64,000 nucleotides of DNA. Source: a virus. Positions 1-62,858 of this stretch are shown here, piece by piece. The position numbers and the translations under genes are program-made. The notes beneath the pieces are model-generated. The model did not search any database. It saw only the letters and a list, made by a program, of their open reading frames with translations, and was not told the DNA's origin. Location: the IMG/VR virus record IMGVR_UViG_3300033153_002993, positions 1 through 64,000 of that record. One strand, 5' to 3'. The stretch's first letter is position 1. Each line of letters begins with the position of its first letter.

Positions 1-117
1 GGCCGGGCAGAAGCGGGCGTATTCGTCGCCCTCCACGATCGAGTCGTTGCCGATGCCACCGACACCAGGGAGGCACAAAGCCCCCAGTCCTGCCTTCTTC
101 CTGAACCTACGTGCCAT
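1..117 (-). CDS. Hypothetical protein, N-terminal fragment (runs off window)
   Basis: The first 39 residues of a protein are visible, starting MARRFRKKAGLGALCLPG; the rest lies beyond the left edge. The N-terminus is basic and then glycine-rich. I recognise no family. The ATG lies one base past the stop of the preceding gene, so the two are translationally linked in the late head-gene transcript. Its place after the major capsid gene makes a small morphogenesis protein plausible, but nothing in the visible residues proves it. Confidence 0.6.
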   Translation of the reverse strand, partial: MARRFRKKAGLGALCLPGVGGIGNDSIVEGDEYARFCPA

Positions 118-37086: not shown

Positions 37087-37157
37087 CCTCCTGGCCCAAG
37101 GCCATCAATTGCCTACACGGCAACTCGAAAACTACCTAATAGCGATCCGATTGTCAA
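37087..37157 (-). promoter_or_regulatory. Promoter and leader hairpins for gene 36381-37079
   Basis: TTGACA (37152-37157), 17 bases, TAGTTT (-10 at 37129-37134). Leader hairpins TTGCC-TACAC-GGCAA (37109-37123) and GGCC-CAA-GGCC (37093-37103). The second touches AGGAGG (37087-37092), the ribosome binding site. Confidence 0.6.
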
Positions 37158-38317
37158 GCGGTATTTCGTGGCCCTAGAAGTGACTGCACTTCCTCGGGTT
37201 TTCGAGCGTCGATGTCCCCCTTGCCAGGTAGGTCAACGATGTCGATCTGTTCGATTCGGAAGGTGTTCCCACCCTTGCCTGGAGGGTCGAACGGCCGCCC
37301 AGGGAATTCCAAGTCTCGAAGGGCGAGCCGGTCGCGCTCGGCAGCCTCCGTCCCAGCCTTGTCCGCATCCGGAACGATGACCAGGTGATCGAACCAGCGC
37401 ACCAGCTTCTCCGACTGCTGCCGGCTCAGGTGCGTACCCATGCGCGCAAGGGTGTTCTGGTAGCCGCACTGCCAGGTGTAGATCGTCTGGAAAAAGCCCT
37501 CAAAAAGGTAGCCAGTCCGGATGCTGGAATCGTGCTTGTGCCCCCCGAACAGAACGCGGTCCCGCTTGAACGGGCTGTGCAAGTACTTCGGAGGAGGGGA
37601 CTTCCCGCACCGCGTGCATTCCTTCTTCACGACGGAGGCCCCACAGAAAGAACACACGCTGTCATCGAAGGTACGCCCACTGATCGAGACGAGTTTGCCA
37701 TCTTCATCGCGAATCGGAATGGCGATGCGGTGCTTGAAGCTGTGCCAGCCGAGTTCCCACTCCACGACAGTCAGGTCCGAGAGCCTCCGGCCCTTGACGC
37801 CCATGAGCGGGTCGTCCTGCCGTGTCAGGTACTCCCGCACGTAGTCCGGCATGTCCTCGATCATCTTCTTCAGGACGTGCTCGGGAACCTCGGCCTGTGG
37901 TTCGTCGTCCGGATGGACGAACTTACTCTTGCGCGTCGGTCCGGCGGCGTACTTGCGAGCCGCGCGTATCCGTCCTTCGAGGTCGTTGGCGGCCGGCTCA
38001 GGGAGATCGAGATCGAACTTCTCGACGTCGATCTTATTGTGCTTGACCAGATAGTCGAAGAGGTCGGGCTTGGGTCGTCGCCCCTCCACGCTCAGGCGCC
38101 ACACGAGCGGGAGGAGCCCTCCGTAGATACCACACGCCTGGCACCGACAATTGCTCTCGTCCCCAGGGTTGATCGAGATGGCAAACGACGGCTGCCGATC
38201 CTTACCCCCGCTATGGAGGTGGGTCATAGGGCACGTCGAGCGCACCCACTTCGCCCCGACAGAAATCTTCTGGCACCTGAGCGCGCTCAGGAAATACCGG
38301 ATCTCGCCAACGTCCAT
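37154..38317 (-). CDS. DnaG-type DNA primase
   Basis: A 387-residue primase. Residues 28-65 have the zinc-binding start CPMTHLHSGGK...CRCQACGIYG. Around 195-255 the polymerase core (HRIAIPIRDEDGKLVSISGR) is followed by a second cysteine set CSFCGAS...CTRCGKS. TOPRIM region: YLFEGFFQTIYT, then HLVIVPDADKAG. Makes RNA primers for lagging-strand synthesis with the DnaB-like helicase encoded upstream. Smaller than bacterial DnaG (about 580) but typical for phage. Confidence 0.88.
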   Translation of the reverse strand: MDVGEIRYFLSALRCQKISVGAKWVRSTCPMTHLHSGGKDRQPSFAISINPGDESNCRCQACGIYGGLLPLVWRLSVEGRRPKPDLFDYLVKHNKIDVEKFDLDLPEPAANDLEGRIRAARKYAAGPTRKSKFVHPDDEPQAEVPEHVLKKMIEDMPDYVREYLTRQDDPLMGVKGRRLSDLTVVEWELGWHSFKHRIAIPIRDEDGKLVSISGRTFDDSVCSFCGASVVKKECTRCGKSPPPKYLHSPFKRDRVLFGGHKHDSSIRTGYLFEGFFQTIYTWQCGYQNTLARMGTHLSRQQSEKLVRWFDHLVIVPDADKAGTEAAERDRLALRDLEFPGRPFDPPGKGGNTFRIEQIDIVDLPGKGDIDARKPEEVQSLLGPRNTA

Positions 38318-38321
38318 GTCC

Positions 38322-38783
38322 TCACCTTCGCTTGGCCCGCTTGGCTCGCTTCACCCTCTTCGGCTGCCTGCGCGCCGAGGAGCGAGCCACCTTTGCCAGG
38401 CGTCGTCGTCTTTGTAGCTTCCGGCTCTCGTGAGGCTCTTCCGTCACAGGCTCCGCATCCTCTGACGTGGCGCCCGAACCCTCGGGCTCCTCAACCTCTT
38501 CCTTGATCAGCACGTACAGGGCATTCCACGCTTGCGTCTTGACGCTGCCGCCCTTCTCCCGTCGGTGGCGGTTCTCGGCCTTCTGCCCCTTGGTCTTGAG
38601 TTTGATCTTCTCCGGGGTGACCTTCCCAGAATTCTTCCATAGAAATCCGTATTCGATGAGTCGGCTGACAGCAATGTCCAGCGACTCCTGTACGCGCTCG
38701 ACCTTGGTTCCGGTGCAGTAGCCGCTCTTGTAGATCGCGAGCGCGCAGTGCTTGACCAGGACTGGTATCTGCTTCGCAGGCAT
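38322..38783 (-). CDS. Hypothetical protein between primase and helicase
   Basis: A 153-residue protein starting MPAKQIPVLVKHCALAIYKS. The N-terminus resembles a winged-helix-like unit (residues 15-60), the middle is Glu-rich and the C-terminus is basic (RRLAKVARSSARRQPKRVKR). No family recognised. It lies inside the replication operon, ending five bases before the primase. Confidence 0.6.
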   Translation of the reverse strand: MPAKQIPVLVKHCALAIYKSGYCTGTKVERVQESLDIAVSRLIEYGFLWKNSGKVTPEKIKLKTKGQKAENRHRREKGGSVKTQAWNALYVLIKEEVEEPEGSGATSEDAEPVTEEPHESRKLQRRRRLAKVARSSARRQPKRVKRAKRAKRR

Positions 38784-38784
38784 A

Positions 38785-40182
38785 TCAGAAAGGCACCTGG
38801 TCCTTCGTGTTGTCGTCGTCCTTGAACAGGAGCCCAGAACCGTAGGGGTCGGGATCAGACCCAGAACCGCCGCCTGAGCCGCCTGAGCCGCCTCCTGCGC
38901 CTCCCTGACCGCCTCCAGGCCCTCCGGCCCCTCCAGCCCCTCCCGCGCCCGCTACGGCCGCCTGTGCGCCCTTGGGTAGCTCATCGAAGCACATGGTATC
39001 GAAGTCCCAGTGGGTCTCGATCTCCTCGCCTTCCCCCTCCCGGAACTTCAGGGGTAGCTGGACCATCCTCCGGTCCCGCTTCATGTCGTCCGTCCGGAGG
39101 AGCCCGAAGATGAGGTCGGCGTTCCAGCCTGCCGCGTCGGACAGGGCGATCTTCTCAGGGCCGGCAGACGAGAGATTGTTCCCCTTCACCTCGCGGTTGA
39201 ACTGAGTCGAGGCCACGAGCGGAAGGTGGTTCCGCTTCGCCACCCGCTTCAGTTCGTCGAACGAGTTGGCCGCCTTCTCGATACGCCCCTCGCCCTTGAC
39301 CTTCAGAAGGTATGCCCCGTCCATGAACACCACGTCCGGCTCGCACTCCTCGATCGCCGCTTCCAGGCTCTCGATCCTGAAGTCGAAGTCACCTCCAATG
39401 ATGTAGAGCCCCTCCTCTTGTGCCAAGGTGACGAGTTCGTCGCGCATCCTCTGCTCGGCGAACGCACTCAGCAAGCCCTTCCGGAGGTCGTTGTACGGGT
39501 ATCTGAAATGGATCGCGAGCCAGCGACGAATGATCGACAGTTGGGACATCTCGGTCGTGGCGAAGAGCACTCGCTTCTTCTGGACCGACCATACGTGGTC
39601 GGCGATGATTGCCAGAGCCCATGTCTTGCCGACCCCGAGGCGGGCGACGTACAGAACGAAATCTTCCGGCCAGAAGCCGAGGGTTGACTCATTGATCGTC
39701 GGCCACGGCGTGAGGATGCCCCGGTAGCCGGCCTTGATCTTGTCGTAGTACTCCAGGAACTCCGGACCGAGGGACGGCAGGCTCACGGTCTTCGCCGTGG
39801 CGACCCCCAGCTTCCGTAGCTCCCGGATGCCGTCCTCGTACTCCGCATAGGCCGCCTGGGGGTCCCGCGCCTCGAAGTGCTTGGTGATGGCTAGCAGTTG
39901 GTCCCCGATCGCGTTGTGGAGCCGGCGGTTGAGAACCTCGTCTATCCAGACCTCCGGTGGTGTCCCGGGTGGGGGATCGTCGAGTTTTACGCCGGTCTTG
40001 CCCTCCACGAACGCAGGGTCCGGAACGGCGCTGTACTGCTTCAGGTAGTCGAGAACGCACTTCCAGGCCGTGAGACCCTGCCCCGAAAGGCACTCCTCAT
40101 CGACGCCCTTCTCGATAGCGAGACGAACGGTGCTGTGCCCCGCTTTCAGCGCACTAGCGACAAAGATCGTGTCAAGGTCCAC
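38785..40182 (-). CDS. DnaB-like replicative helicase with SSB-like tip
   Basis: A 465-residue RecA-fold helicase. Walker A ARLGVGKTWALA near residue 180, then ATTEMSQLSIIRRW. Walker B-like CEPDVVFMDGAYLL. Active-site loop LVASTQFNRE. The C-terminal tail is Gly-rich and acidic, ending DDNTKDQVPF, an SSB-like tip. Acts with the loader (40204-40812) and primase. GTG or ATG start at 40182 follows the loader by about 21 bases. Confidence 0.88.
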   Translation of the reverse strand: MDLDTIFVASALKAGHSTVRLAIEKGVDEECLSGQGLTAWKCVLDYLKQYSAVPDPAFVEGKTGVKLDDPPPGTPPEVWIDEVLNRRLHNAIGDQLLAITKHFEARDPQAAYAEYEDGIRELRKLGVATAKTVSLPSLGPEFLEYYDKIKAGYRGILTPWPTINESTLGFWPEDFVLYVARLGVGKTWALAIIADHVWSVQKKRVLFATTEMSQLSIIRRWLAIHFRYPYNDLRKGLLSAFAEQRMRDELVTLAQEEGLYIIGGDFDFRIESLEAAIEECEPDVVFMDGAYLLKVKGEGRIEKAANSFDELKRVAKRNHLPLVASTQFNREVKGNNLSSAGPEKIALSDAAGWNADLIFGLLRTDDMKRDRRMVQLPLKFREGEGEEIETHWDFDTMCFDELPKGAQAAVAGAGGAGGAGGPGGGQGGAGGGSGGSGGGSGSDPDPYGSGLLFKDDDNTKDQVPF

Positions 40183-40203: not shown

Positions 40204-40812
40204 TCAGGTCCCGAGGACCGCTTCTTTTACTGCTTGCTTCCGGCTGTCGTGCAGGTTCGGACCGGACACCTTGAACAAGAGCAAAACATCCAACAGCGAG
40301 TTCATCGGCGGGCCAGTGAGCGCGCCCTTGTCGAGCCGTGTCGTGAGGAGCGTCACGCGGCGCCGAGACGCTCGGTACCGGACCAATTCGTTGATCTCGG
40401 AGAACGTGAAAAACTTCTCGCCAGCGTCCTCTTGACGCAGATCGTCTAGGACAAGCACTTCGACCTCTCGGGCACGCTGCGCCATGGACGAGTCGTCGTC
40501 GTACTTCATGCGGGAGCGGATCATCTCGCGTAGCTCCCAGAGGCGAACGAACAGGGCCGTATACCCGCGCGAGCGGGCCTCCTTCGCAATGAGGGAGGCG
40601 ATGGCTGTCTTGCCTGTACCCGTCGACCCGTGGATGACAAGCCCGGCTCCGTGAGCCATAGCTTCGTCCACGTTGCGGAGGTAGGTCTCGACCTTCTCGC
40701 GAGCCTCGTCGCTGACGTTCTGCACTTTCGCCAGCCAGAGGTCTTCCGGCAGGTTCATGCGCTCCAGGTCCACACGACCTAGCTTTCTCCTGAATTGCGC
40801 CGTGTCGATCAT
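40204..40812 (-). CDS. DnaC-like helicase loader (AAA+)
   Basis: A 202-residue ATPase. Walker A GSTGTGKTAIASL near residue 65; Walker B VEVLVLDDLRQED; sensor-type TLLTTRLDKG. This matches DnaC/DnaI-type loaders. It loads the DnaB-like helicase encoded directly after it. Between them and the initiator-like gene, an ordered initiator-loader-helicase-primase module is present. Confidence 0.88.
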   Translation of the reverse strand: MIDTAQFRRKLGRVDLERMNLPEDLWLAKVQNVSDEAREKVETYLRNVDEAMAHGAGLVIHGSTGTGKTAIASLIAKEARSRGYTALFVRLWELREMIRSRMKYDDDSSMAQRAREVEVLVLDDLRQEDAGEKFFTFSEINELVRYRASRRRVTLLTTRLDKGALTGPPMNSLLDVLLLFKVSGPNLHDSRKQAVKEAVLGT

Positions 40813-40830: not shown

Positions 40831-42252
40831 TCAACTCCCGAGCCCAAGAGACTCCAGCGCTGTTCTCGCCGTCTCATACCGCCCCTGCAACTCCGAGGGC
40901 GGCGTCTCGTCGTCGTCCTCGTGACCGCTCTGCCACGCCTCCCACTCCTCCATGACCTCCCGATGCTCCCCCCACATCGCGGCCTCTCGGAACAGAGACT
41001 CGTGCATGGAGAGGAGCAGCGCGAAGTTTGGGACGCTTCCTGGTCCCTTTTTGAAGAAGCGCACATTGATCGAATCCCAATTGCCTACCACAAAGCGTAG
41101 CGTCTGCTCCACCGCATCGCCACCATACATATCCACGAGACGGTACATCTGCCCGCGCGCCTTCGCGTTACCCTCGGCGTTCCATCGCACCACTGGCAGC
41201 ATGGGGTAGCTGTCCTTGGTCAGAGTCGTGTAGAGGTCCCACGCGCAACGTGAGGCTTTGAGCACGGCGTGGGTGAACTTGGTCCCACCCTTCAGGTTCC
41301 GGACTCGCTGCTCATCGGCGTCACCCTTCTGGACCTGCTCTGTGCGCTTCGCTGTCAATCGCTCCGTCACCTTCTCGACCTTGGCCGCTTGTTGATGGTC
41401 CGCCTTGGTCTTGCCGATCGTCCCCGCCTCCGCCGCGCGGGCGAACCTATCCTCATCCTGCCTGGAGTCAAGAGCAGAGTCAATAGCAAACTCAGCGCTA
41501 CTCCCTTCTTGATCTTTTTTCTTCTTTTGAGATCTTCTTCTACGTTCTTGTCCGGCGGGGTCATTCCAATGCTCTGGCTCGGGGCCGGTCGAGTGTGTTG
41601 GCGCGCAGCGCCCTACATATTCCTCGGACTTATCTATTCTCTCTCCCGAAGGGTTATCTATTACAGAGGGACTCTCTGACCCACCCCCCGGGGGTAGGTG
41701 GGACTCTGTGACCGAGGGGGTGGGACTCTCTGACCCACCCCCGTTCGCTCGGTACAGACCTCTGTCCTTCCGCGTGACCCACTCCTTCGCCAGCCGAACC
41801 CGTTCGAGCACGGGGATGCTGTACACCTGCTCTTCGGTCCGGTCTGCAAGCTCCTCCAAGTAGAGACAGAATTCCCGGCAGTCCATATCCGCGTAGAAGA
41901 CCTCCATGCCGCCTTGGATGACGTGGCCTAGTTCGTAGACGAGAGCCCCACCCAAGGGCTGACCGTTCTCAGACCGAACCCAACCGATCTCTCGAAGCAG
42001 GTTCACGCGACGCTGGACGGTCTTCACAGAGAGGCCGGTCGAGTCGGCCAAGGTCTGACGACGGATACCGACCGAGAGGTGCCCCTTTCGGACCTCGGCT
42101 CGCATCTTCCCGTTGCCTCGGGAGCGCGACCGCCACACGTGAGCGCGTAGTTCTTCGTACACGGCGACGGTGTCTACCCCGAGCGCCGCCGCCATCTTCG
42201 ACTGGTAGAAGGCAGAGTCCTTGATCAGGTAGCTTTCAGACCCCCCGCGCAT
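40831..42252 (-). CDS. Initiator-like protein with winged helix
   Basis: A 473-residue protein. ATG 42252 (MRGGSESYLIKDS) follows GGAGGTGG. Residues 15-110 form a helix-turn-helix/winged helix (VAVYEELRAHVW, GIRRQTLADSTGLSVKTVQR), as in phage O-like or DnaD-like initiators. The middle is Ser/Pro/Glu-rich and flexible; the C-terminal part (residues 310-430) is helical. Upstream of loader and helicase, it is the natural candidate for origin binding, but no origin repeats are seen within the gene. Confidence 0.65.
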   Translation of the reverse strand: MRGGSESYLIKDSAFYQSKMAAALGVDTVAVYEELRAHVWRSRSRGNGKMRAEVRKGHLSVGIRRQTLADSTGLSVKTVQRRVNLLREIGWVRSENGQPLGGALVYELGHVIQGGMEVFYADMDCREFCLYLEELADRTEEQVYSIPVLERVRLAKEWVTRKDRGLYRANGGGSESPTPSVTESHLPPGGGSESPSVIDNPSGERIDKSEEYVGRCAPTHSTGPEPEHWNDPAGQERRRRSQKKKKDQEGSSAEFAIDSALDSRQDEDRFARAAEAGTIGKTKADHQQAAKVEKVTERLTAKRTEQVQKGDADEQRVRNLKGGTKFTHAVLKASRCAWDLYTTLTKDSYPMLPVVRWNAEGNAKARGQMYRLVDMYGGDAVEQTLRFVVGNWDSINVRFFKKGPGSVPNFALLLSMHESLFREAAMWGEHREVMEEWEAWQSGHEDDDETPPSELQGRYETARTALESLGLGS

Positions 42253-42415
42253 CTTCCACCTCCTCCCCTTCAAACTCAGTCGGCTGAGAGTGACGTAGAA
42301 GGATCTCCAGGACGACCTTCGGGCCAACACCGATCACGGGCAGTGCGTCGAGCGCAGCCGGGTGGGTGTAGAGCGCGGAGTAGAAATCAGAGAGCACGGA
42401 CCACCTCCCCCTCAT
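42236..42415 (-). CDS. Hypothetical small protein, 59 aa
   Basis: Starts MRGRWSVLSDFYSALYTHPA, overlaps the initiator-like gene by 17 bases. Helical (AALDALPVIGVGPKVVLEIL) with an acidic tail. Its ATG lies 12 bases past the U-tract of the structured RNA, with no clear ribosome binding site. Read-through of the RNA would carry it. No family recognised. Confidence 0.5.
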   Translation of the reverse strand: MRGRWSVLSDFYSALYTHPAALDALPVIGVGPKVVLEILLRHSQPTEFEGEEVEDARGV

Positions 42416-42426
42416 GGCCCGCGCAT

Positions 42427-42563
42427 AAAAAAGCACGAGCCCACTAGGAGGCCCAACGGAGACGAGGACGCAATGACGATGTGACGTCGGCGCGTGGAGC
42501 GCCTTTGGGCGTGGCTTACGCCAACGCCAATCCTCGAACCCGAATTCCTAGTGGGCTCGCGCT
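42427..42563 (-). ncRNA. Structured RNA with promoter, 18-bp closing stem and U-tract
   Basis: The minus strand folds with AGCGCGAGCCCACTAGGA (42563-42546) pairing with TCCTAGTGGGCTCGTGCT (42449-42432): 18 continuous pairs with one G-U. Six T residues follow (42432-42427), the first pairing in the stem. Inside are CGAGGA/TCCTCG, a hairpin GGCG-U-UGGC-GUAA-GCCA-CGCC with a GNRA tetraloop, a hairpin GGCGC-UCCAC-GCGCC and a short GACG/CGUC hairpin. A promoter lies at 42571-42599, so transcription would start within a few bases of the stem. Reads as either a free small RNA ending at the U-tract or an attenuator for the replication operon. No known family recognised. Confidence 0.65.
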
Positions 42564-42570
42564 GAAACGG

Positions 42571-42599
42571 ACTCTATCACATAGAAAGTTTATAGTCAT
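42571..42599 (-). promoter_or_regulatory. Promoter of the structured RNA
   Basis: ATGACT (42594-42599), 17 bases, TAGAGT (-10 at 42571-42576). Similar to TTGACT-17-TAGTGT of thyX. Predicted start 42564-42565. Confidence 0.55.
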
Positions 42600-42673
42600 T
42601 GCTAAATCCCCGTCCGGTAGTTGGGCCGCCACCGAATCAGGACCACCGATACTGCCCTCCAAGGGGCGAAGGG

Positions 42674-43741
42674 TCAAGAGTTTTCGTCGGAGGGATCTTC
42701 TGGCGCGATCGAGGTCACGGTTTCTGCTACTTCTGAAGGAGGGCTGGGAGCCTTGTACCCCATCTCAGAGCAGACAGGGTCGATCTCTTCTGGGCTGGTG
42801 GGGCGTCTCCAGAACGCATTCAGGGTGTTGGTCCCTTGGAGGCGTACCAGCCCCCGGGAACACGCGATTTGATCGTCGCAGGCCGCCTTGCCGCTCTCAC
42901 AGCGACCTCCCCACGTGATAGGCCGCCCCGGCAACCACTGGACACGGTGACCTGGCCTCGACTCGGGCAACTTCCCAGCAAGCAGCCGGCGAGCGTCAGC
43001 CACGGCTTGGGGGCAGGCTTTCGAGCCGTAGTGCGAATCCCAGTGGTTCCCGGATTTCGGGTACCCCTCGGGCATCTCACAGTTGGGGGTGAGTTTGCCG
43101 ACCCAGATCGCGCGTTGGTTCTGGGCCTTGATCATCCCGAGCACGTGACGCTGGTGCCGCCGTAGGGCCGAGAGGTAGGTCTCCCCTTCGCCCTCTACGC
43201 ACTCTGTGATGCGTCGGATCATCCCCCGGTCGCAGGACCGGCGGCGGTTGTTCTTGACCACCTGCCAGATGCCTGTGCAGTCCTGGGGGTTGCCGTCGGC
43301 CTCGGCTATGCACACTCGGAGCAGGGCTGTCAGAAGGGCCTCGTGACTCTCCTCGACAGGTACATTCCAGATCTCGCCCCGCCTCTCTGCGGGCGACTCC
43401 CATCGGAACCTGCGAACACGGCGGACACGCTTTGGGGGCGCCTTCGCAAACTCCGCCTCCAGGGCTTCCGACCGCTGGCGTGACTCCTCCTCCTCCTGAG
43501 CCCAACAAGCCTCCCTCTCCTGCTCGTGTCGCTCCCCTTGCTGGCGGAACTCGGCCGCCTCCCGAACCCGGTCCTCCCTCGCCAGTTGGCGCTGTCGTGC
43601 TCGGTCCGGCCCCGCCCCCGCAGTCTCCTCGCAAGACACGAGAAAAGGGGTCACGGACGCCCCAGCCGCAATGGCCACGAGGATTGCTCCTATGACCATC
43701 GCCCCCCTGAGTTTGCTCGACACTCCTCGCCACGTAGCCAT
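42674..43741 (-). CDS. Membrane-anchored probable peptidoglycan hydrolase
   Basis: A 355-residue protein. Residues 14-36 (AMVIGAILVAIAAGASVTPFLV) form an N-terminal transmembrane or signal-arrest segment. A long charged helix (residues 40-110) follows. The C-terminal region (about 145-270) has VCIAEADGNPQDCTGIWQVV followed by CDRGMIRRI and AVADARRLLAG, laid out like SleB-type cell-wall hydrolases with a catalytic Glu. Six or more cysteines suggest disulfides outside the membrane. Likely lysis function; no holin is visible beside it. ATG 43741 after AAGGAGG. Confidence 0.55.
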   Translation of the reverse strand: MATWRGVSSKLRGAMVIGAILVAIAAGASVTPFLVSCEETAGAGPDRARQRQLAREDRVREAAEFRQQGERHEQEREACWAQEEEESRQRSEALEAEFAKAPPKRVRRVRRFRWESPAERRGEIWNVPVEESHEALLTALLRVCIAEADGNPQDCTGIWQVVKNNRRRSCDRGMIRRITECVEGEGETYLSALRRHQRHVLGMIKAQNQRAIWVGKLTPNCEMPEGYPKSGNHWDSHYGSKACPQAVADARRLLAGKLPESRPGHRVQWLPGRPITWGGRCESGKAACDDQIACSRGLVRLQGTNTLNAFWRRPTSPEEIDPVCSEMGYKAPSPPSEVAETVTSIAPEDPSDENS

Positions 43742-44981: not shown

Positions 44982-45464
44982 CTAGAACAGGTCAGCCGAC
45001 CCGTCGAGGTCGTCGGGCTCGTCGGGCTCCCGCGCGAAGGGGGAATCGCGGATGGTGGCGAGGGCTCGGGGGGTCGTAGCGACGACATAAATGCGGACGT
45101 CCTCAGTGTGGTCCTCACCGAAGTGAGTTCCGAGAAAGACCTTCAGGCCCAACTGACCGAAGGGGCCAGCGATGCCATCGTCACCATCCACGAAAAACAG
45201 CTTCGACCGTCGCGTCGCGTCGTACTCGCTCGGGTCGGTCACGTACAGCTTCCCGGCCTTCTCTTGGGTGCGAACCGCGACCTGCCTGTAGAGCACCTCC
45301 AGAACATCCGTAGGCACCGTCCAGCCCGTCGTCTCAGGGTCTCCGAGGGTCCCGCCTAGTCTCACCTCCGTCGGCTTGTCGCAGCACGGACAGCGGCCCA
45401 CAGGCCCCTCGTAGACCAGGCGCCTCTTGGGAGGAGCTTTCTGCTTCCTCTTCGCCACGTTCAC
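44982..45464 (-). CDS. Hypothetical protein of the MoxR/VWA operon
   Basis: A 160-residue protein with N-terminal basic stretch, a CPCCDKP zinc-like site near residue 25 and beta-rich core (RSKLFFVDGDDGIAG, VRIYVVATTP). The acidic tail ends GSADLF. GTG start 45464 overlaps the upstream stop (GTGA). Forms the end of an operon with the AAA+ and VWA genes; role unknown. Confidence 0.6.
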   Translation of the reverse strand: MNVAKRKQKAPPKRRLVYEGPVGRCPCCDKPTEVRLGGTLGDPETTGWTVPTDVLEVLYRQVAVRTQEKAGKLYVTDPSEYDATRRSKLFFVDGDDGIAGPFGQLGLKVFLGTHFGEDHTEDVRIYVVATTPRALATIRDSPFAREPDEPDDLDGSADLF

Positions 45465-47428
45465 CTCGTCCGGAGGTACTCAACAAACGCCCCGGTGACG
45501 AGTTGCACCAGGTCGTTGCCGAAGGAGTCCTCCCCCATGATCCGCCAGAACTTCGACGATCCGAACATGAACGACATCCCCTTGGGTTTGATGTCGTGGC
45601 CGATCATCACCCCAGTGACCCCGATGCCCTTCGAGCGAGCAGTCATGACGTTGCTCCGGACGAACGCCATGAGCGTCTGGGTCCCGAAGTGCGCGCCGTC
45701 ACGCCGAGCGAAGACAGGGAAGCCGTCCGAGATGACGAACAGGTGCTTCTTATCCGTGCCGTCCTCCAACTCTCGGAGCGCGACCCGGATAGCCGTGTGC
45801 AAGGGCGTGTGGCCGCCCACTGCCGCTGCCTCCGACTCGAAGACCTCCTGCCCGGCCTTGAATCGTGTGATGTCTACCTCGCCGTCCTTCCACGATTGGA
45901 AGCCCCAAACGGTGCGCGCGACGAACGGGAAGTCCAGCGCCCGAGAGATGATCCTGCAAGCTCTCTCGGCCTGCGCCGTTCGCTTCCCTTTCATGGAGAT
46001 GGAGCGGTCCACAAGGACGACGGTCTTGAAGCCCCGGCCGAAGCTGTCCACGCGGAAGACGGGAAGGGGCTCCCCGGTCATCCGGCGCTCAATAAGAGCC
46101 GGAATGTCGACTTGCGACCCAGAGTCCTCCAAGGTGTTCACGCGGCGCCCTATGACCCGGTGGAACATCGCGCGCAGGCGCCGCACCGTGTCCTCGTCCT
46201 CGTCCTCGATCCTGGCGTGCGGGTCGCTGTGCGGGGAGGGCATCACGTCCTTGAAGACCACCTTGGCGTAGCTCTCCTGCCGAATCTTATCGTCGTGGTT
46301 CGGGGTATTCTTGGTCGCGTGGCGGGCCTTCTCCACGATCTGGATCATTTGCTCCGAAGAAATCTCCAGGGCCGTCTCCAACTTGTCGCCGTCTTTCACG
46401 TCAGCGTTGATCGCTGCCCGAGCCCGACGGTTGGCCTTGGTCTCCTCGCCGCGTTTCTTGTAGCGTGACTCTCCGACCTCGCTCGTGAGGTCTTTCGGGG
46501 CGACCCCGAGCCTGTCAATCGTGTCCTGCATGGCCTTGGAACGGGCTTCCAGACCGGCCTGGACCTTCGGGGGCTCCCAAGCATCCCCTCCGTGGCCCCC
46601 AGAAGGGGTCTCAGAGCCCTCCTGAGCGTCTCCGGCCTCCCAGGGCATGGATGGCGGCCCGGAGGGTTCTGAGTCGTCTGGAAGGCCGTCAGGGGCGTTC
46701 TTGGCCCCGAACTGACCGTCCTGCCCGGCCCCGGGCTGGAATGAGGGCATTGGAGGGGGCTCCTCACCCCTCGATTCCCGGATGATCTCGCTCACCAGTT
46801 GCACGATGAGCCACTTCGCGGCCACGAGGCAGCCGAAGTAGTCCCGGAGGTGCACCTTGCGGAGCGCCTCGCGCATGTACGGGACGAATCGGTCGAGCTT
46901 TCCCGGTGGGACATCGTTGCCGCTCGCCACACAGATGAGAAGCGAGATGAAGTCCTCGTGCACCATACCCAGATACGGCTTCACCTCGTCCGCCTTCATA
47001 CGCCGCATGATGGCCTCGGAGCCCTTGTACAGGAGCCCCCAGAGCGAGATAACCCGCTCGTCGTCCAGCACGCCTATGATGCCGTCCAGGCCCGCGCGGA
47101 GCATCCGTTCGTTGATCGGCGTCCCGGCCCCCTTGGCGACCTGCCCGATCTTTTCGGAGTACTCCTCCACGAACTTCTGCTTCGCCAGGAAGTCGCTCTG
47201 AAACAGGATGTGGCTGATCTCGTGCTCGGTGTACTGGTACGCGCGGGGGTGCATGAAGGGCACCTCGATCAGGTAGCCGTTGGTCTTCGGCTGTCCGTCC
47301 CGAGCGTCCTTGAGCCAGAGCTTTCGCTCCACTATCCCGGCGAAGACGTCGACCGTCTTGTACGCCATCGCCTTCTGGGATGAATCCACGCCCGCTTTCA
47401 GGAGGGCGTCAACGTCGATGTCAGACAT
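45461..47428 (-). CDS. VWA-domain protein paired with MoxR ATPase
   Basis: A 655-residue protein. Residues 1-230 are helical, with a HEISHILFQ near residue 70 (HExxH-like, possibly metal-binding). Residues 230-320 are disordered Pro/Gly/Glu. The VWA domain starts near 460: VVLVDRSISMKGKR is the MIDAS DxSxS motif, later GGHTPLHTAI and FVISDGFPVF. Such proteins work with MoxR AAA+ ATPases to remodel proteins or insert metals (CobT/CobS, ChlD-like). The ATPase gene lies directly upstream. Target unknown in phages. Confidence 0.8.
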   Translation of the reverse strand: MSDIDVDALLKAGVDSSQKAMAYKTVDVFAGIVERKLWLKDARDGQPKTNGYLIEVPFMHPRAYQYTEHEISHILFQSDFLAKQKFVEEYSEKIGQVAKGAGTPINERMLRAGLDGIIGVLDDERVISLWGLLYKGSEAIMRRMKADEVKPYLGMVHEDFISLLICVASGNDVPPGKLDRFVPYMREALRKVHLRDYFGCLVAAKWLIVQLVSEIIRESRGEEPPPMPSFQPGAGQDGQFGAKNAPDGLPDDSEPSGPPSMPWEAGDAQEGSETPSGGHGGDAWEPPKVQAGLEARSKAMQDTIDRLGVAPKDLTSEVGESRYKKRGEETKANRRARAAINADVKDGDKLETALEISSEQMIQIVEKARHATKNTPNHDDKIRQESYAKVVFKDVMPSPHSDPHARIEDEDEDTVRRLRAMFHRVIGRRVNTLEDSGSQVDIPALIERRMTGEPLPVFRVDSFGRGFKTVVLVDRSISMKGKRTAQAERACRIISRALDFPFVARTVWGFQSWKDGEVDITRFKAGQEVFESEAAAVGGHTPLHTAIRVALRELEDGTDKKHLFVISDGFPVFARRDGAHFGTQTLMAFVRSNVMTARSKGIGVTGVMIGHDIKPKGMSFMFGSSKFWRIMGEDSFGNDLVQLVTGAFVEYLRTR

Positions 47429-47438
47429 GGCGCCCCCG

Positions 47439-48278
47439 CTACTTGAGTGTGATACCGAAGACCGACTGCACCCTCGTGAGGAAATAGTCTCGGTCCTGGC
47501 CCTCGAACTTCCCGGAAGCGAGGCGCAGCGCGTCCTCCAGCCCGCAGTAGCCGATGTCTTCGAGGATCTGCACCGTGTCGCGCGGGGACAGCGAGTAGGC
47601 GAGGCTCTTCTGGCGCGTCTCGTGCGCGAGCGTGAGCACGTCCTTGATCGTCTCCTTCTTCACCCCGCCGCCGACGACCTTCTTCAGGATGCGCGTCTCC
47701 TCGCCCTTCGAGGGGTACTCCACCGGCAGCATGCGGAAGCGGCTCTTCAAGTCCTCGTTCAACTCGTAGACGCCACCGTAGACCGAGGTGTTCATGGTCC
47801 CGCAGAGCCAGAGTTGCGCCCCATTCTTCAACTCGAAGACCCGCTTGCACTCGGGGACCTCGATCCGCCGCCGGTAATCTCCGATGGCGTTGAGCATCTT
47901 CTGGACGGAAGGGGTGAGGGCGTTGATCTCTTCGAGGCAGAGGATGCACCGGCCCACCTCGTTCGCGACCTCGATAGCCGTGGGGAGCGGACCGAGGATG
48001 AACGGGCTCTCATCACCCCTGAGCGTGAACATGCCGAGCAGGTGCGCCCGGCGGATGTCCTCACTGCAATCGAAGGTAACGATCGGGTGATCGTTCTCGT
48101 GAGCCCAGGACGCGATGGAGAGAGTTTTGGCGACCCCCTTCGGCCCGACGAGGATGAGGTTCGCGTTGAACCCGATCTTGTCGAACAGCGGGAGGTGCTC
48201 CGCCACGTCCTCGTAGATGAGGTCGCCCTTCGGGGTGAAGGCGTCGTTGGGAAGCCTCTCGACGGTCATGTCCCCCAT
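47439..48278 (-). CDS. MoxR-family AAA+ ATPase
   Basis: A 279-residue ATPase. Walker A VGPKGVAKT near residue 45; Walker B CILCLEEINAL; sensor 1 GTMNTS; Arg-finger-like LKSRFRM. This matches the MoxR/CobS type. It sits between a helical protein and the VWA partner and is likely in one complex with it. CobS-like chaperone activity is expected; client unknown. Confidence 0.85.
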   Translation of the reverse strand: MGDMTVERLPNDAFTPKGDLIYEDVAEHLPLFDKIGFNANLILVGPKGVAKTLSIASWAHENDHPIVTFDCSEDIRRAHLLGMFTLRGDESPFILGPLPTAIEVANEVGRCILCLEEINALTPSVQKMLNAIGDYRRRIEVPECKRVFELKNGAQLWLCGTMNTSVYGGVYELNEDLKSRFRMLPVEYPSKGEETRILKKVVGGGVKKETIKDVLTLAHETRQKSLAYSLSPRDTVQILEDIGYCGLEDALRLASGKFEGQDRDYFLTRVQSVFGITLK

Positions 48279-57595: not shown

Positions 57596-57660
57596 CCTCT
57601 CCTAGCGGGACACGTCCCACTCGTCCCACCTAACGTATGCTATTGACGCGAGAAAGTCAA
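57596..57660 (-). promoter_or_regulatory. Promoter and leader hairpin for gene 56885-57589
   Basis: TTGACT (57655-57660), 17 bases, TACGTT (-10 at 57632-57637). Leader GGGA-CACG-TCCC (57607-57618), then CTAGGAGAGG. Confidence 0.6.
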
Positions 57661-62411: not shown

Positions 62412-62655
62412 CGGTCTTGGAGCCGGGATCACCTCTCCCACAGAAGTACAAGAGCAGTACGTACCAAAGAGCCAGGAAAAAGTGACAGCGGTGCGCTTTT
62501 TCCGCTTGACTCTGAGGTTTGCGCTTGACACAGTGAGAGATGCGAGCGGGAGGTCCATCACCTTCCGGGAGCTACCGAGAAGCACGATGCAACGGCATAT
62601 CGAACATACCCGGTTGAAGCGCACGGAGGTCAAACGACCGTCCTCATGGACGTGT
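62412..62655. other. Gene-poor stretch between operon and tRNA cluster
   Basis: No supported protein gene on either strand. The plus strand holds two TTGAC boxes (TTGACT 62506, TTGACA 62525) without a convincing -10, so a tRNA promoter is possible but unproven. With 62656-62784 this is the longest gene-free stretch. Confidence 0.5.
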
Positions 62656-62784
62656 CTACCCTCCGATGGCGGTAATACCGTGTTTTATGCTGCCATCGCG
62701 CTCCAGGAGGGTAGCCCCGGGTAAGGCTCTCGCACCACACGCACCACGCGAGAGCCGCCCCGGGAAACCGAGGCGGCTTTTCTC
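62656..62784 (+). other. Structured leader with competing hairpins and terminator before tRNAs
   Basis: CTACCCTCC (62656-62664) pairs with GGAGGGTAG (62706-62714), enclosing GATGGC/GCCATC. GGCTCTCGC (62725-62733) pairs with GCGAGAGCC (62748-62756). A terminator-like stem AGCCGCC/GGCGGCT (62753-62759 and 62772-62778) plus TTTT shares bases 62753-62756, so the two cannot form together, as in attenuators. Confidence 0.55.
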
Positions 62785-62858
62785 GTTTCTGGGCTCGAAG
62801 AAGAAGGAGGGGAGGGTGAGACAACGACTGAAACGGTGACCCTGAGACCGCAAACTCA

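Follow-up and report, generated by a model that had tools for sequence, protein, structure and literature searches.

In erm-type translational attenuators, the leader can refold so that the next gene has its ribosome-binding site masked, and the leader peptide overlaps the arm that switches. In the pyrBI leader, ribosomes trailing RNA polymerase prevent terminator hairpins from forming (PMC5021804). Among phages, the put RNA of HK022 is a structured nascent RNA that heads an early operon (PMC9378689). The RNA described here, which directly precedes the replication genes of a phage, is best read as a new family of this known kind of leader. From its sequence and that of its homologues, we propose with moderate confidence that it is a two-state attenuator containing a leader peptide, which would function as the 5′ leader of the rep-dnaC-dnaB-primase operon. 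Put is an instructive parallel but differs from it, having about 70 nt and two stem-loops and suppressing termination, whereas the present RNA is one large closed domain with a U-tract end and an ORF; size and layout differ, and no sequence relation between the two was shown.

The window, i.e. the whole stretch of 64,000 nucleotides analysed, is part of the IMG/VR virus record IMGVR_UViG_3300033153_002993 (65,658 bases), and since the identical sequence was found within a contig of 184,744 bases, the phage is large. Genes for head, portal, protease, DNA polymerase, recombinase, DnaB helicase and primase are recognisable, and the minus strand of the window carries most genes. The RNA region lies between the gene of a 355-amino acid protein with a membrane N-terminus (42674-43741), which is SleB-like (cell-wall-hydrolase-like) by inspection only and gave no Pfam or PHROG match, and a series of replication genes on the minus strand. 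The latter comprise a short wHTH-like ORF, the first after the leader (42236-42397), a rep-like ORF (40831-42330), a dnaC-like ORF (40204-40812), dnaB (38785-40182), an ORF for a 153-amino acid protein (38322-38783) and the primase gene (37154-38317). An earlier reading of this DNA, made from the sequence only, had placed the replication operon 12 bases downstream of the RNA, which is approximately correct: homology places the next start at the GTG of 42397-42395, with the SD GGGGGAGG at 42411-42404.

The structured domain occupies positions 42427-42563 of the minus strand, where the stem, internal hairpins, GUAA loop and U6 tail described in the sequence-only reading are all present. In the closing stem P1, GCGCGAGCCCACUAGGA (42562-42546) pairs with UCCUAGUGGGCUCGUGC (42449-42433) over 17 bp, which an A-U pair extends to 18 bp. 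The further helices are P1b, P2, P3, which is the hairpin with the GUAA loop (42522-42513), P4 and P5, and the U6 tract (42427-42432) directly follows the 3′ arm of P1. The two arms of P1 have additional roles in the sequence, as the 5′ arm (42546-42562) doubles as codons of a short ORF, and the 3′ arm (42433-42449), which begins with an anti-SD-like UCC(U), is common to an alternative hairpin, P6. Next to the latter arm, the 3′ internal-loop strand GUUGGGCC (42450-42457) is invariant in the four close homologues, and is a possible partner of the loop of an upstream hairpin, H0, or of the multiloop sequence GCCCAA. The domain has an MFE of −82.4 kcal/mol, whereas shuffled sequences average −53.0 (z = −7.8), and none of 200 shuffles was equally stable. 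Folding of the opposite strand is only slightly less favourable (z = −6.4), owing to the long inverted repeat, so the fold alone gives no strand. Of all stems that span less than about 200 nt on either strand of the 64-kb window, P1 is the longest.

Rfam 15 gave no family match at the gathering score for the window or the homologous loci, in agreement with the sequence-only reading, which had recognised no known RNA family; in E-value mode the sole match in the window was MEG8_1 (E 4.6), a chance match. A Y RNA/Ro60 assignment was rejected, as a search of the 65.7-kb record, itself a fragment, for TROVE found nothing and Rfam gave no match. A separate hairpin-rich region is found at 62640-62795 of the plus strand, just upstream of a cluster of ten tRNA genes (MFE z = −5.0). 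It ends in a terminator-like GCCGCC...GGCGGC-TTTTCTCG and may represent either another RNA or a leader belonging to the tRNA array.

Three relatives with the RNA, L003 (IMGVR_UViG_3300009509_000033), L011 (3300017989_000073) and L014 (3300027917_000034), came from protein-guided and pattern scans; together with the window they make up the four close homologues. The divergent fifth member, L106 (3300009702_000026; DnaB ~61% identical), was found through synteny alone, and in all four relatives the RNA stands between a cell-wall-hydrolase-like gene and the replication genes. The covariance model of the first four homologues scores L106 at 33.6 bits on the correct strand, a value that is only supportive because the reverse strands of true members, due to the long palindrome, score 30-35 bits; L106 was accepted on synteny, P2, the ORF and GACGUCAC, rather than on the score alone. 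Each of the records that were searched whole with this model has one copy of the RNA.

In the hand-aligned helices P1, P1b, P2 and P4 of the five homologues, all base-pair cells (155/155) form standard pairs. Since the alignment was made with the structure in mind, this percentage leans towards structure; independent of that are the double changes, which occur at 11 pairs, seven in P1, one in P1b and three in P2, with P4 invariant. Conserved pairing in relatives, on which the sequence-only reading had staked its novel structured RNA, is thus present, and the covariation, the absence of an Rfam match and the same position in relatives all support that claim. The main-domain cells include 7 G-U and no A-C, and the presence of the former without the latter indicates that the selected molecule is the minus-strand RNA, as had been assumed. 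On this comparative sequence evidence, we regard the folded RNA as real and evolutionarily conserved.

The RNA is absent from L012 and L013, in which the upstream gene is present, and from L108, where the space is insufficient; L012 and L108 are among the more distant relatives. Pattern matches in L016, L017 and L019 lie within a coding gene and were rejected as chance, and all 77 matches in genome contigs, as well as L020-L022, were discarded for being without the long closing stem. Among INPHARED phages, blastn found no similar RNA; the upstream gene had no relative there either, and the best DnaB was ~31% identical. Other long-stem leaders occupy the same site before the rep gene in L107 (~541-737), L112 (~1780-2013) and L113 (~1990-2210), whose DnaB proteins are more distant. 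They are preceded by the same TTGACC-17-TA-like site, and L107 and L113 share CUCCAGAAGCGAAG...CUCCUUCGCCGCUGGAG; these leaders are different from the window RNA, and no homology was demonstrated.

The rep-like gene is a single ORF in L003 and L014, and two consecutive ORFs in the window and in L011 (2580-4542), with a short or 151-amino acid wHTH-like ORF coming first (in the window, 42236-42397 ahead of 40831-42330); we read this arrangement as a duplication or split of the N-terminal part of the initiator. Beside the replication operon, a MoxR-type AAA ATPase and a VWA-domain (CobT-like) protein are encoded as a pair (45461-48278, minus strand), which is conserved in L014, L108 and L109; the VWA protein is also present in L106.

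The 5′ half of the RNA is overlapped by a short ORF (42516-42599, minus strand; MTINFLCDRVRFSASPLGIRVRGLALA, 27 codons), which starts at the ATG of the −35 hexamer (ATGACT) of the promoter proposed in the sequence-only reading and has an SD-like GGGG 8 nt upstream. All five homologues have 25-27 codons from the ATG to a stop within P3, the peptides of the relatives being MTRQFLYATVCFCASPLGVRVRGLA (L003), MLTDLPLCDIVPLEASPLGVRVPGLA (L011), MKPLCDIVRFCTSPLGVRVRGLALA (L014) and MRHLLCYDSDLTGLLGVPVRGPESLA (L106), and in the window the stop codon UAA falls inside the GUAA tetraloop. The distances from the ATG to the core in the close four are 15, 15, 9 and 18 nt, i.e. the indels are in frame, and SD-like purines precede the ORF in four of the five by inspection. 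Over the aligned core, synonymous codon differences number 46 in the frame of the ORF, and 11 and 15 when the other two frames are read (column shuffles, p = 0.0077 for the score and p = 0.0036 for the synonymous count). This statistic is good, not overwhelming, because the sequences are related to one another and the ORF coincides with helix arms, where pairing constrains its bases as well. In every homologue the ORF, with its start codon, overlaps the 5′ arm of the hairpin, as a leader-peptide attenuator requires; the peptide is without a run of regulatory codons. Since this coding-like ORF begins 5′ of the start site that had been proposed, one expects the functional transcript to begin further upstream, ahead of the promoter of that reading.

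Between the stop codon of the upstream gene and the ATG lies the hairpin H0 (42613-42636, minus strand), with the core UUCGGUGG-CGGCCCAA-CUACCGGA. In the four close homologues it has double changes at four pairs and 10 G-U versus 1 A-C cell; H0 thus evolves as RNA, and must be part of a transcript. Its apical loop GCCCA is kept in all five members, and the complement UGGGC is part of the 3′ internal loop (GGCCCAAC/GUUGGGCC). The perfect complement spans 8 nt in the window (shuffle p = 0.0095), 9 in L014 (p = 0.003), 7 in L011 (p = 0.07), 11 in L106 (p < 0.0005) and 5 in L003 (p = 0.37), and on these counts a contact between the two loops is only a candidate. An internal pseudoknot between the multiloop GCCCAAC and GUUGGGC is possible in the four close homologues and was not preferred over the H0 contact, as L106 has only 5 perfect pairs.

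A promoter-like site, TTGACC-17-CAGTAT (42649-42677, minus strand), is found 5′ of H0, where it overlaps the stop codon of the SleB-like gene; it is a consensus match only. The TTGAC is kept in 8/8 relatives, including the three with a different leader RNA, and the −10-like hexamer 17 nt after it is weak in the window (CAGTAT, 3/6) and reads TATCTT in L112. Of the TTGAC-16..18-TA matches in the window, 14 are on the gene-bearing strand and 3 on the other, and the pattern may be the promoter type of this phage. Such sites on the minus strand include those at 57660, 48954, 44230, 37157, 32306, 15913 and 6224; many are at gene ends, and the candidate motif often reads ...GGTA. Together, the conserved H0 and the promoter-like site on its 5′ side imply a longer transcript. 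The promoter of the sequence-only reading, ATGACT-17-TAGAGT (42571-42599, minus strand), stood up in one half. Its extended −10, TGNTANNNT, is kept in 5/5, and a second, shorter transcript from it is possible; the −35, which overlaps the ATG of the ORF, is not kept (ATAGCT in L014 and CTAACC in L011 at that spacing), and the whole matches 8 of 12 consensus bases, below our scan threshold of 9 of 12.

At its 3′ end, P1 is mutually exclusive with P6 (42404-42441, minus strand; GGCUCGUGC-UUUUUUAU-GCGCGGGCC), in which the 3′ arm of P1 pairs with the sequence after the U-tract (42441-42433 with 42424-42416). This pairing is possible in all five homologues, with double changes at two pairs, and its outer pairs are predicted in 5/5 to join CCU(C) of the P1 arm to the rep SD. 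When the 5′ arm of P1 was blocked in silico, in imitation of a ribosome translating it, P6 entered the MFE fold. P6 is located 3′ of the terminator and is therefore unable to act as a classic antiterminator, which would be upstream of the terminator and exclusive with it; here the exclusive partner is downstream. The U-tract itself is U6 in the window, L011 and L014, interrupted in L003 (UUUCCUUUU) and short in L106 (UCUUUAU), so that termination may be partial or absent in these two, and may not be general.

The sequence-only reading had favoured a dedicated small RNA gene. On this view, transcription from the extended −10 (42571-42579) to U6 would give a stable, end-protected RNA of ~137 nt acting in trans on an mRNA or protein. 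This agrees with the kept TGNTANNNT, 8-10 nt before the stem base, and with the window, L011 and L014, in which the stem base is the predicted start and the U-tract the predicted end; unpaired motifs beyond the ORF are also kept (ACGUCA, GUUGGGC), and the compact form, closed ends and terminator-like 3′ end are shared with phage small RNA genes in general. The reading is weakened, however, by the conserved ORF that begins upstream of this start, by an H0 that also behaves as RNA, by a −35 half lost in L014 and L011 versus a TTGAC kept throughout, by the poor U-tracts of L003 and L106, and by the pairing of P6 with the rep SD in all members. A promoter that is half conserved, the overlapping ORF and the SD pairing point instead to a role in cis. 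Thus, we consider a small RNA gene unlikely, and attenuation or leader control, which had been named as the main alternative, fits better in view of the leader ORF and P6, although an upstream antiterminator is missing.

Were the element simply an intrinsic terminator or an insulator separating two operons, or else a processing stem of the RNase III type, its inner structure would be incidental. The long stem with a U-tract in three of five members and the co-directional genes on both sides are in line with this, but the inner helices, loop sequences and ORF are conserved and covarying, the U-tract is less conserved than this interior, and a simple terminator would not have a stem around 100 nt; we judge this explanation improbable. 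A DNA-level element, such as an origin of replication containing the inverted repeats GGCCCAAC/GTTGGGCC or a cruciform to which the initiator-like protein encoded next to it binds, would suit the neighbouring rep-like gene and the repeated GCCCAA/TTGGGC words, but is very improbable given the G-U to A-C counts of 7:0 in the main domain and 16:1 in H0 and P6 together, which are unexpected under selection on duplex DNA.

In the attenuator that we propose, transcription would most likely start just 5′ of H0, at ~42642 or further upstream. The transcript would then contain, in order, H0, a weak ribosome-binding site, the ORF of 25-27 codons, which provides the 5′ arms for P1, P1b and P2, the rest of the main domain, the U-tract and, immediately after it, the ribosome-binding site of the replication genes. 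With the ORF untranslated, P1 would close and, together with the U-tract, stop a share of the RNA polymerases before the replication genes, while ribosomes on the ORF would keep the 5′ arm of P1 open and allow read-through. The freed 3′ arm would fold with the downstream segment as P6, masking the rep SD until P1 re-forms, and both termination and translation of the replication genes would depend on ribosome traffic on the leader. Candidate signals are a general fall in translation and a peptide of the arrest type.

This arrangement resembles the pyrBI/pyrL leader of E. coli in that a short ORF extends into the 5′ arm of a terminator-like hairpin located immediately ahead of the operon, and by analogy translation of the leader could keep the terminator open. 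It differs in that a domain of 100 nt with several helices and conserved loops lies within the phage hairpin, that there is no U-rich pause coding region or run of amino-acid codons, and that the genes which follow are phage replication genes. The likeness to erm-type leaders lies in the rep SD, which the modelled folds predict to be sequestered in one of two exclusive states in 5/5; in contrast, the phage leader offers no evidence for a drug- or ligand-stalled peptide, and a terminator-like U-tract is also present. We call it a variant of the pyrBI- and erm-type leaders, since the antiterminator upstream of the terminator is missing.

A more specific idea, which we put forward as doubtful, is that the leader senses the translation state of the host, with an arrest-type peptide, the two-state RNA and the H0 contact together setting read-through and translation of the initiator. 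If this were true, the leader would represent a new class of RNA switches in phages, and the RNAs that sister phages have at this site would be analogous to it but different. For annotation, a layout of promoter, stem and U-tract calls for a check for overlapping ORFs before a small RNA gene is named. Control of the switch to DNA replication is known mainly from a few model phages and is mostly protein-based. An RNA leader that covaries, contains its own peptide ORF and stays at the same site as the phages diverge would extend this control, in a group of uncultivated phages, by a timing device at the RNA level.
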